Origin: Verrucomicrobiota bacterium
Lineage (GTDB): Bacteria > Verrucomicrobiota > Verrucomicrobiia > Opitutales > Puniceicoccaceae
Assembly: GCA_038744685.1 (NCBI GenBank)
Contig: JBCDMB010000007.1
Span: 62,001 to 126,000, forward strand
Length of the DNA: 64,000 bases
Direction: 5' to 3'
Shown here: positions 47,545 to 51,266 of the stretch, piece by piece
Numbering within the stretch: position 1 is the stretch's first letter
Layout: each line of letters opens with the position of its first letter
Translations under genes and position numbers: made by a program
The notes under the pieces: model-generated
What the model saw: the letters and a program-made list of their open reading frames with translations, nothing else
Databases searched by the model: none
What the model was told of the DNA's origin: nothing

Positions 47545-50373
47545 TTAAATCTTCCTTTCACGATAGAGAGAAGAATCTGCCACTGCAGCCATCACCTCAA
47601 AATCGAGACCTCCACCGAGAAACTCCACGATCTGCTTAGCTGTTTCAAGTGGCTTGCCAACCGCCTCACTGTATCGAACCGGAAGCAGTTCCCAGTTTTC
47701 CGCATTAGCGGTTAGTTTGTTAATGTTCCCCAGGTGATTCGCGTAAACTTTTGCTAGACTCTCATCAGAGGTCATGGCTCCGGTCTTCTCTTCCCGATCC
47801 AGCATTTTCCGCTGGGACGACAACACCTCAACAACGTCGCGCTCCATAAATATAATTTTACACGGAAGGTCTCGCGGAACGAATCCTAGGAGCGGAGCCA
47901 CAATCTTGATTGCAGAGCCTAGTGACTCTTTGAGCCACGTTCTGTCCTTGTCCGCTGCCAGCTTCTTTACCCGTTCGTCTTCGTAGTAGCCTTTCGGGTT
48001 AGATTCGTCGGAAACCCGGTGTCGGTCCGAAACAATCGGGATGCCTACAGCTTCCAACATCTGCATCATGAGAGAGGTTCCTGAACGCGGTAAACCGGAG
48101 ACAATGATCAGTATATCTGCGAAGCCCTTCGTTGCTTTACCCATTACCTTTACAATCGGTGGAAACGCTGACAATTCCCGCCGACCTTCGGACCGGTTCT
48201 TCTTCGCCTGCTCAGCTTTTTCTTTTGCTAGAACTGCCAACTCTCGATGACGTGTGGCCTTCTCTGGATCTTTTAGAGCCTTTTCGTAGAGAACAACCAA
48301 CTGCTCATGAGCCGCCGGATACGTGGGGCTCTGTGACACTGCTGTGAGAAGCGTCAACTCTGCCAGCTTTGCCTTGCCCATTCGCATGAGAGCCGTGCCG
48401 TAAACCAGATGTGCCCTCGGATTGTGAAAGATCAGTTCCAGCGATCCAAAAGCCTCATCTGCCGCTGCGAAGTGATTTCCTCTTTTCAAATGAACCCGCG
48501 CCAGACCTAAGCGGGCATCATGGCTGTTCGGAGCGATTTCGACAACTTTTTGATAACTCTTCTCTGCTTCGTCCCATTGCTCCAGAGCGAAGTGAACGTC
48601 TCCGATCTTTGAATACAGGCTGGGTTGGTTCGCGGTCTGAACTTTCGTGGCCTGTTCGAGCGACTCCAACGCTTCCATGTGCTTTCCCTCCAAAGTGAGC
48701 ACGCAACCATTTAAGTAAGCCAAGGCATGCGGATTGGTCCCTGACTGTCCGCGTAAGCGACGAATCTTCATCTGCGTCGCCCGTGGTAACTCGGCAGGCT
48801 CGAATTCCTCACCTTGTTCCTCTGCTTCCTTTTTCCGCTTTTCCTCCTCGGCTTTCAGCTCCTCCTGAAGTTCCTGCAACGCCTTCCCTCCCGACTCTAC
48901 GGCCGCCTTCTTGCGTTCGAGCTGACGATCAAATGTCTCCCTTGCCTTTTCCCCGTTTTCGAGTGCCAGCCAGCAAGCCAGTAGTTTGGTTCCAAAACGA
49001 CTCTCCTCCGGCCATCTATCCCACTGCTTTTCGAGGATTTCCACAGCTTCATAGTAAAGACCCCCGTCCATATATGCCTGCGCGAGGTTATACTGGAGTT
49101 CACGAAGGGTTTCATCGATCGCTTTACCGCGGTCTGGATTCGGTTCATCGATGTAGCCAAGATCCACAAGCTGCCGGAGCGACTCTCTCGACTCTGCGGC
49201 GTCCATTCCCGCCTCAGGTGGATGACGTCCGTCGCCGTACTCCCCCTCGATCTCATCCCAGCTCTCCACAAACTCAACCGTCTCTTCGTCTTCAAAACAA
49301 TTGAGTAACACCTTGCCGTCCATATCGCGGCCAACCGGCAAACCATAGAGATGAAGAAGGGTCGGTGCGATATCGAGCAGAGAAGCCCCAAAGATCCGCT
49401 CTCCTTTTTGAATACCGGGTCCCTTCAAACAGAAAATACCGTAGGGTGAATGTTCGGCGGCAGGTCCAGCCGGCTCATTCGGGATAGATGCCGGACGGAG
49501 GTTCCCCGGCTCGAACCCATGGTCCGAGATCAGCATAATGGTCGTATCCTCGCCCGCGAGCTGCAGAAGAACATCCAGCATCATATCGTGATACCGGTAG
49601 CCTGCCTCGATCACGTTTTTGTAGAGTTCAAACTCCTCTTCCTTTACCCAAGGCTGCCGCGGGGGATGGAATTTCATGAACCCGTGCCCAAAGTGATCTA
49701 TGCCATCGTAATACACGGCCATAAAATCCCACGGTTCAAGCTGCATACAAGCAGTAGCAGCTGCATGGATACCAGAGATTTCAGCAATCACCTTTGCGCA
49801 GGAAGCCATCCGTTTGTCCTTATCCTGATCGATTTCTGACGCCTTTGGGATAAAGGGTAGAATATGTTCGTTCTGCAACTCAGCGGGGTGAACTCTCATT
49901 TCCTTGAGCGGTTCCTCCAATTCCTTGGGGTGAACAGTGCCGGGACGCATGGGCCATTCCTCCTCCAGATTCTTCACGGCCTGCTGAAAGTGATTCGAAA
50001 TCATTACGCCATTGATCGGCTCCACTGGATGAGAGGGCCACCAGCCGATTACATTACTCTGCCATCCCTGCTGGCTAAAAATGTTCCAGATTGCTTTCGT
50101 TTTGCGGGAAAGATTAGTGATCGGACGTATCCCTCCAGTGGCAGGACAAGGTTCGGAAAAGCCATGAATCCCGTGTTTCCACGCTCGTTTTCCAGTGGCA
50201 ATGCTCGTCCAAAGCATAGGAGATAGAACCGGTCGCACCGTCGCCAAATTCCCCCATACTCCTTCGTCCATCAGGCGCTTCAGAGCGGGCATCTTCCCCT
50301 GTTCAACGAGAGGGAGAGCGACATTCCAGTCGGCGGCATCCCAGCCAATGAGTAGGACTTTTCGTTCGGGCAT
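47545..50373 (-). CDS. Phosphodiesterase-TPR-sulfotransferase fusion protein
   Basis: A 942-residue soluble protein with three parts. Residues 1-395 form an alkaline-phosphatase-superfamily phosphodiesterase: D12 ([10 protein letters not shown]), [20 protein letters not shown], then metal ligands D223, D226/H227 and H230 ([11 protein letters not shown]), D284/H285 (ISDHGFE) and H308 (EHSPYG). Residues 415-715 are TPR repeats broken by a coiled coil (500-530). Residues 752-942 resemble a sulfotransferase: [15 protein letters not shown] (760-768 is the PAPS 5'-phosphate loop) and [16 protein letters not shown]. No signal peptide, so cytoplasmic. The substrate is unknown; all motifs look intact. 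ATG at 50373. Confidence 0.88.
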
Positions 50374-50597: not shown

Positions 50598-50611
50598 AGT
50601 TTTCTGTGTGT

Positions 50612-50866
50612 ATGAAAAATATCACAGTTTCTGTGCCCGACGAGACCTACTACCGGGCACGCGTTCTCGCTGCTGAGCGAAGGACCTCTCTCTCAGCCAT
50701 CGTCCGAGAAACCCTGAATGCCTTGTCTTCCGAAAGAACGAAGTCAGAGCAGCTTGCCCTTGAGGAGCAACAGATCGTCGACCAAATTCGGATTAGGGGA
50801 TGCACCTTTACGGCAGCGGACCGTCTAAGTCGTGAAGAAGCCCACGACCGAAATGCGCTTCGTTGA
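50612..50866 (+). CDS. Ribbon-helix-helix antitoxin (VapB/CopG type)
   Basis: About 84 residues. The N-terminus KNITVSVPDETYYRARVLAAERRTS is a typical ribbon-helix-helix DNA-binding fold with a beta strand then two helices; the C-terminus is a charged tail for toxin binding. Start ATG 50612 (GTG 50606 also in frame). The stop overlaps the PIN toxin start at 50853 by 14 bases, giving translational coupling. Confidence 0.85.
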   Translation: MKNITVSVPDETYYRARVLAAERRTSLSAIVRETLNALSSERTKSEQLALEEQQIVDQIRIRGCTFTAADRLSREEAHDRNALR

Positions 50867-51266
50867 CACCAACATTCTGCTCTACCGAGTTAGCCCCGCG
50901 CCCGCAGAAAAGGATAAGGCCGAGGTGGCTTCTTCCATCCTCAGAGACCGGGACCCATGCCTCTCGGTTCAGGTCCTTCAAGAGTTCTATGTCCAAGCAA
51001 CAAGAGAATCGCGGGAAAGCCCACTTTCGCACCCTGAAGCAACCGGCCTTATTGAAACCTGGAAACGATTTTCTGTTCAGCCCATGACCCTTGAGTTGAT
51101 GGATAACGCTCTGTCCGCAAAGCTGCGGTGGCAACTATCTTTCTGGGACGCTGCAATTATAGAGGCTGCCCGCCTTCAAGCTTGCTCAACTCTACTCTCT
51201 GAAGACCTCACTCACGATCAGAATTACGGTGGTATTCAGGTGATCAATCCGTTCATCGATCTGTAA
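50853..51266 (+). CDS. PIN-domain toxin (VapC type)
   Basis: A 137-residue RNA-cleaving toxin. Acidic sites in order: MRFVDTNILLYRVS, VQVLQEFYVQATRES, LSFWDAAIIEAARL and LLSEDLTHDQNY; the end is NPFIDL. All four PIN positions are present, unlike the broken toxin at 8702. The frame also opens at 50832, but ATG 50853 begins the usual PIN strand and overlaps the antitoxin. Confidence 0.88.
   Translation: MRFVDTNILLYRVSPAPAEKDKAEVASSILRDRDPCLSVQVLQEFYVQATRESRESPLSHPEATGLIETWKRFSVQPMTLELMDNALSAKLRWQLSFWDAAIIEAARLQACSTLLSEDLTHDQNYGGIQVINPFIDL

Follow-up and report, generated by a model that had tools for sequence, protein, structure and literature searches.

Genes for a phosphodiesterase–TPR–sulfotransferase chain commonly lie beside those of an exported bacterial surface-protein family

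The 942-residue protein described here is likely a bifunctional enzyme in which two active sites, that of an alkaline-phosphatase (AP) superfamily phosphodiesterase and that of a PAPS-dependent sulfotransferase, are intact on one chain. It is encoded within the window, a 64,000-nucleotide stretch of a Verrucomicrobiota contig, and most of its homologs are encoded beside a family of exported surface proteins. This physical linkage of the enzyme gene to a surface-protein family is new here and is the main lead that a first-pass annotation of the window had missed. It is consistent with a cytoplasmic, TPR-docked enzyme dedicated to modifying exported surface proteins before their export, a reading to which we assign a probability of roughly 0.5.

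Results

Domain architecture and active sites

The layout of the gene is given in Table 1; the plus strand across the same interval is full of stop codons. A Pfam search with the 942-residue protein matched Phosphodiest (PF01663) over residues 6–290 with an E-value of 2e-25, several TPR models over their cutoff (best 2e-14) and Sulfotransfer_3 (PF13469) with an E-value of 4e-12 and 47 bits against a cutoff of 27. An AlphaFold model built with 63 homologs (mean pLDDT 93, pTM 0.80) arranges the chain as an AP-type alpha/beta domain, a helix of about 46 residues, TPR helices to about residue 728 and a C-terminal alpha/beta domain. The AP part aligns with Xac NPP, the ENPPs and PafA with Z of 26–27 over 270–325 residues (rmsd 2.7–3.6), and the top Foldseek matches of the TPR part are consensus TPRs and O-GlcNAc transferase. 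In the model the sulfotransferase domain is folded with high confidence, but the PDB fold matches listed fall in the AP and TPR regions; by profile, this domain matches SULT and tyrosylprotein sulfotransferase (TPST) chains among PDB sequences with weak similarity (best E 5e-6). The first-pass description of two intact active sites on one 942-residue chain, joined by TPR and coiled-coil segments, is thus borne out by Pfam, the model and the conservation described below, with the long helix of the model (residues 474–519) standing beside the TPRs as connector. As the first AP strand in the model begins at residue 5, a signal peptide could not be accommodated before it, which points to a cytoplasmic location.

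Table 1. Features of the enzyme gene, in window coordinates
Feature	Position	Strand	Basis
CDS, phosphodiesterase–TPR–sulfotransferase, 942 aa	47545..50373	minus	ATG start; ORF list, Pfam, AlphaFold model
AP-superfamily (NPP-like) domain, residues ~3–370	49264..50367	minus	PF01663; VIA Z 26–27 to NPPs and PafA; catalytic residues 63/63
Ser51 codon, predicted covalent nucleophile	50221..50223	minus	aligned to Thr90 of Xac NPP; Ser in 63/63
Helical/TPR segment, residues ~411–728	48190..49143	minus	Pfam TPR models, model helices, Foldseek to consensus TPRs and OGT
Long helix, residues 474–519 (~46 residues)	48817..48954	minus	AlphaFold model
PAPS-sulfotransferase domain, residues 753–942	47548..48117	minus	PF13469; profile matches to SULT and TPST chains in PDB
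5'-phosphosulfate loop SGLPRSGTS, residues 759–767	48073..48099	minus	invariant or near-invariant
3'-phosphate motif R845...S853-Q854	47812..47841	minus	invariant or near-invariant

Both active sites are conserved far beyond chance. The Ser/Thr nucleophile and the six ligands of the two metals that mark the NPP/AP superfamily are present, and these residues (D12, S51, D226, H230, D284, H285 and H308) are identical in 63/63 homologs, including chains that have no sulfotransferase. The 5'-phosphosulfate-binding loop and the 3'-phosphate-binding Arg/Ser motif of PAPS sulfotransferases are likewise present in a domain that scores above the PF13469 cutoff, with SGLPRSGTS, E798, K823, R845, S853 and Q854 near-invariant wherever that domain exists. 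At the nucleophile the sequence is S51-P-M-L-W, with S51, P52 and W55 invariant among the homologs and S51 falling, in the alignment, at the position of Thr90, the catalytic residue of Xac NPP; the C/S-x-P-x-R formylglycine motif of sulfatases is absent there, and sulfatase activity of the AP domain was rejected on this ground. The AP domain should therefore make or break phosphate rather than sulfate esters and is unlikely to remove the chain's own sulfate mark, and the earlier suggestion that a single protein adds and removes the same ester group is weakened accordingly. Phe72 is invariant (63/63 aligned homologs) at the position after HGxxx that holds Asn in NPPs, which we take to be the phosphate ligand Asn111 of Xac NPP, and the phosphate pocket may therefore differ from that of the NPPs.

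Spread of the architecture

One genome scan for enzyme homologs returned 80 loci in Verrucomicrobiota, Planctomycetota, Bacteroidota, Acidobacteriota, Cyanobacteria, Gammaproteobacteria and other groups, the phyla being those of the record titles, which can be wrong for metagenome bins. Among the 72 loci with a complete AP reading frame the sulfotransferase lies on the same chain in 60, in the next reading frame in 4 and nowhere in the locus in 8. The first-pass annotation had proposed looking for the three-domain order in other genomes, where it proves to be the architecture of those 60 single chains; its description of the pairing as unusual was wrong. In nine loci where the sulfotransferase is off the chain or damaged, it was found elsewhere in the genome in four (E ~1e-75), as a broken C-terminal half in one and not at all in four. 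The broken case (L054:6001-8361, Puniceicoccaceae 5H) has an intact AP-TPR part, two partner genes upstream and a sulfotransferase that lacks the PAPS-loop half. Loss of PAPS residues in close homologs, named at the outset as a possible refutation, was noted in this one homolog, the residues being near-invariant wherever the domain exists. Three loci (L066, L073 and L103) combine an AP-TPR chain retaining all catalytic residues and neighbouring partner genes with no sulfotransferase found. Given that the sulfotransferase is absent or encoded elsewhere in some genomes, AP-TPR is therefore the constant core and the sulfotransferase its frequent partner.

In the Phycisphaerales loci L040, L041, L044, L045, L050 and L065 the enzyme gene is directly followed by one for a protein of about 540 residues, often in an overlapping or touching frame. 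This neighbour looks like an AP domain that has degenerated, ending in a TPR region, and these loci have no adjacent partner.

Exported proteins linked to the enzyme

An all-against-all comparison of neighbouring genes found one family in 51 loci, far above any other, the next clusters reflecting lineage-specific synteny. By profile search this partner family is present in 50 of the 72 complete loci, in 48 of them within 600 bp. The partner gene lies upstream on the same strand in 20 of the 50, upstream and divergent in 16, downstream on the same strand in 11 and downstream on the opposite strand in 3; the occurrence of several arrangements in different phyla argues for a functional link between enzyme and partner. 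Cultivable flavobacteria such as Winogradskyella thalassocola DSM 15363 and Mesonia oceanica are among the bacteria that have both. Across 338 Verrucomicrobiota genomes the partner family is found in 13 of the 16 that encode AP-TPR versus 36 of the 322 that do not (Fisher 1e-9), and in 11 of those 13 it is adjacent. A partner gene was also found elsewhere in 22 of 27 genomes whose AP locus either has no partner beside it or is truncated where the contig ends, and the link is kept by phosphodiesterase–TPR chains without a sulfotransferase. A mirror-tree comparison of enzyme and partner gave r 0.66 (p 0.001), to which we attach no weight because shared descent can cause such a correlation.

Partners start with a leader, continue with a beta-rich core marked by the signature GRF...THYGW...AYE...AG, and end in a tail of the PEP-CTERM, IPTL or T9SS type. 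The PF07589 PEP-CTERM tail was found in 12 of 40 partners and a T9SS tail in 18 of 40; exosortase is encoded in 17 of 19 genomes tested. The core is covered by no Pfam or NCBIfam model, and a fold search gave PDB matches only for the T9SS tail (residues ~196–271), with none convincing for the core, which by itself does not demonstrate a new fold. In the Acidobacteriota partners of L078, L098, L112 and L106 the C-terminal tail retains a LALLALGA-type motif yet is hydrophilic in some (e.g. LELLAAGHVAIAERQRR), which makes a role as membrane anchor very doubtful there.

No acceptor residue is conserved across the partner alignment. The Tyr of the HYGW motif was rejected as a sulfate acceptor, being Phe in partners of the sulfotransferase-bearing loci L007 and L109, as was the Tyr near the mature N-terminus of Bacteroidota partners (QIVYTDxDPD, an acidic site), which is Phe or absent in Acidobacteriota and others.

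The partner leader

Partners encoded beside AP-TPR usually have a weakly hydrophobic, Ala/Gly-rich leader directly preceded by [KR][LI]xxY, whereas their homologs in genomes without AP-TPR have ordinary Leu-rich signal peptides. The motif is found in 54 of 77 partners next to AP-TPR and in 2 of 26 from genomes without it (Fisher 2e-8), and peak hydropathy is 1.47 and 2.08 respectively, in samples that mix related, non-independent genomes and with an AP-less set drawn entirely from Verrucomicrobiota. A profile of the leader alone, built from sequences of the same AP-TPR genomes with rows chosen to contain the Tyr, finds 1–8 proteins in every AP-TPR genome examined from lineages other than the window's (17/17), among them products of non-adjacent genes. 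In 18 AP-less genomes it gave partial matches and none that was complete (best E 2e-4, over positions 19–43).

The Tyr itself varies. By eye, only about half of the AP-linked partners of Verrucomicrobiota have it, and in Opitutae, the lineage of the window (G000, G013 and G011), the leader is Ala/Gly-rich without it, so it was discarded as a universal acceptor. Exported neighbours with other cores in L056, L064 and L107 also begin with [KR][LI]xxY (DKLKSY, KRIEDY and NKLGNY), hinting that the leader rather than the core may define the group.

Discussion

The intact sites, the order of the domains, the linkage to the partner and the co-distribution of its leader with the AP-TPR core lead us to propose a route in four steps, for which we infer the binding, the identity of the substrate, the modified residue, the order of events and the direction of the AP reaction. 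The TPR superhelix would dock the partner precursor before export, with the N-terminal leader ([KR][LI]xxY and the Ala/Gly-rich stretch) as the recognition tag in most lineages. The AP domain would then perform phospho-ester chemistry on the docked substrate, with phospho-Ser51 as the covalent intermediate, and the PAPS domain would sulfate a hydroxyl group of that substrate. Finally, the partner would be exported by way of its Sec-type leader, cleaved at an A-x-A-like site, and would reach the surface through sorting by exosortase, where it has a PEP-CTERM tail, or by the type IX system. A wider form of this proposal, in which an AP-TPR core with an optional sulfotransferase installs phospho- and/or sulfo-modifications in a leader-directed pre-export pathway across many bacterial phyla, is put forward tentatively. 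A dedicated modifier is harder to reconcile with the want of a conserved acceptor in the partners, the Tyr-less leader of Opitutae, the persistence of AP-TPR without a sulfotransferase in four genomes, the marine Phycisphaerales loci in which the gene next door is a second AP-like gene and not a partner, and the absence of an adjacent partner at the window gene.

The main rival is that both domains act on a small molecule, lipid or glycan, with the partner binding, carrying or displaying the product or sharing a surface-coat programme. The NPPs, as close relatives of the AP domain, act on nucleotides and phospholipid head groups, and close homologs of the sulfotransferase lie beside pairs of exported or membrane AP proteins with no partner (L128, L131, L132 and L134), both of which would suit a small-molecule substrate, as would the missing acceptor. 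We nevertheless consider it unlikely, since the feature that tracks the enzyme is a leader, normally removed on export, and direct handling of the precursor accommodates this better; nor do genes for glycan or lipid synthesis turn up repeatedly near the loci among the neighbour clusters listed. Alternatively, the AP domain may serve as a helper that clears PAP, the reaction product by which the sulfotransferase is inhibited, and only the sulfotransferase would act on the partner. Fusion of the two domains or their placement in one operon would be natural for such a helper, and the AP fold does include phosphomonoesterases such as PafA, but the catalytically complete AP-TPR chains that have partners and for which no sulfotransferase was found make it improbable, as does the tracking of partner and leader with AP-TPR rather than with the sulfotransferase. 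An escort, in which AP-TPR holds leader-bearing precursors export-competent and catalysis is regulatory, would account for the leader co-distribution and the TPR architecture; complete conservation of the seven metal and nucleophile residues, and of the PAPS residues where that domain exists, argues for turnover and renders mere escort very improbable.

A precedent for modification before export is RaxST–RaxX of Xanthomonas, in which a sulfotransferase gene is linked to that of an exported protein and sulfation precedes leader removal and export (PMC8872720, PMC6637879). The system described here similarly links a PAPS sulfotransferase gene to that of an exported protein, in 50 of 72 loci and with the partner as presumed substrate. 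While RaxX is a 60-residue GG-leader peptide with type I export, the partners here are of about 200–300 residues or more, with leaders of Sec-like type and tails for exosortase or T9SS sorting, and no peptidase-containing ABC exporter like that of the RaxST–RaxX cluster recurs among the neighbour clusters listed. Unlike RaxST, the enzyme, known here from its genes and with sulfation predicted, adds an AP domain and TPRs. Its AP domain shares fold (Z 26–27), metal ligands and nucleophile position with the type I phosphodiesterase/NPP family (PF01663; Xac NPP, ENPP1–7) and differs in having no signal peptide, Phe72 for Asn and a fusion to TPRs and a sulfotransferase. The sulfotransferase domain has the 5'-phosphosulfate loop and 3'-phosphate motif of cytosolic SULTs and TPST, and is distinguished from them by its short length (~190 residues) and weak sequence similarity. 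A TPR superhelix beside a catalytic domain is reminiscent of O-GlcNAc transferase and SPINDLY, which modify proteins as the present enzyme would, but the catalytic domains and chemistry differ; the enzyme is a member of neither RaxST–RaxX nor the O-GlcNAc transferases. The partners have the C-terminal tails of the PEP-CTERM/exosortase (PMC1569441) and T9SS sorting systems, which read the C-terminus, whereas the enzyme-linked feature is N-terminal and common to both tail types. No paper describing such a system was returned by literature searches that paired these domains with PEP-CTERM or TPR, and the PEP-CTERM paper of Haft (2006) does not mention a sulfotransferase or phosphodiesterase.

If correct, the proposal would describe a widespread and hitherto undescribed way in which bacteria modify surface proteins ahead of export, and a sequence tag would allow the targets to be predicted. 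It would give a recurrent fusion of known domains a likely job, make a surface-protein family without a core-domain model testable, and place a second type of pairing between a sulfotransferase and an exported protein alongside RaxST–RaxX. The AP-TPR core without a sulfotransferase would point to cytoplasmic phospho-ester chemistry on exported proteins.

A second, differently located AP–sulfotransferase module appears to be present in the Verrucomicrobiota loci L128:685-6502, L132:415-6222, L134:2146-8000 and L131, where a close stand-alone sulfotransferase accompanies two AP-family proteins, exported or membrane-bound, and a membrane protein of about 280 residues. One AP protein of L128 has membrane segments and the other a Tat-like signal. 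These loci suggest that AP domains and this type of sulfotransferase are linked in more than one setting.

In the window's genome a second contig encodes a paralog of the enzyme (L002) with 33% identity to the window gene, giving two copies in all; of these, only the paralog has an adjacent partner. Six partner-family genes and four exosortase copies were found in this genome, together with one APS kinase, which implies that PAPS is available. In the closest relatives of the window gene (L093 and L006, 57–58% identity) a partner lies 86 bp upstream; at this place the window has a toxin–antitoxin pair and priA. By eye, the pair (50606..51266, plus strand) consists of ribbon-helix-helix-like antitoxin and PIN-like toxin reading frames that overlap head to tail. 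A functional link to the window neighbours, named by eye as hisS, clpX, ubiE, the toxin–antitoxin pair, priA and a fur-like gene, was dismissed, as they look like unrelated housekeeping genes. In the 3.6 Mb genome G011 at least six enzyme copies, some fragmentary, accompany 38 partner-family matches.
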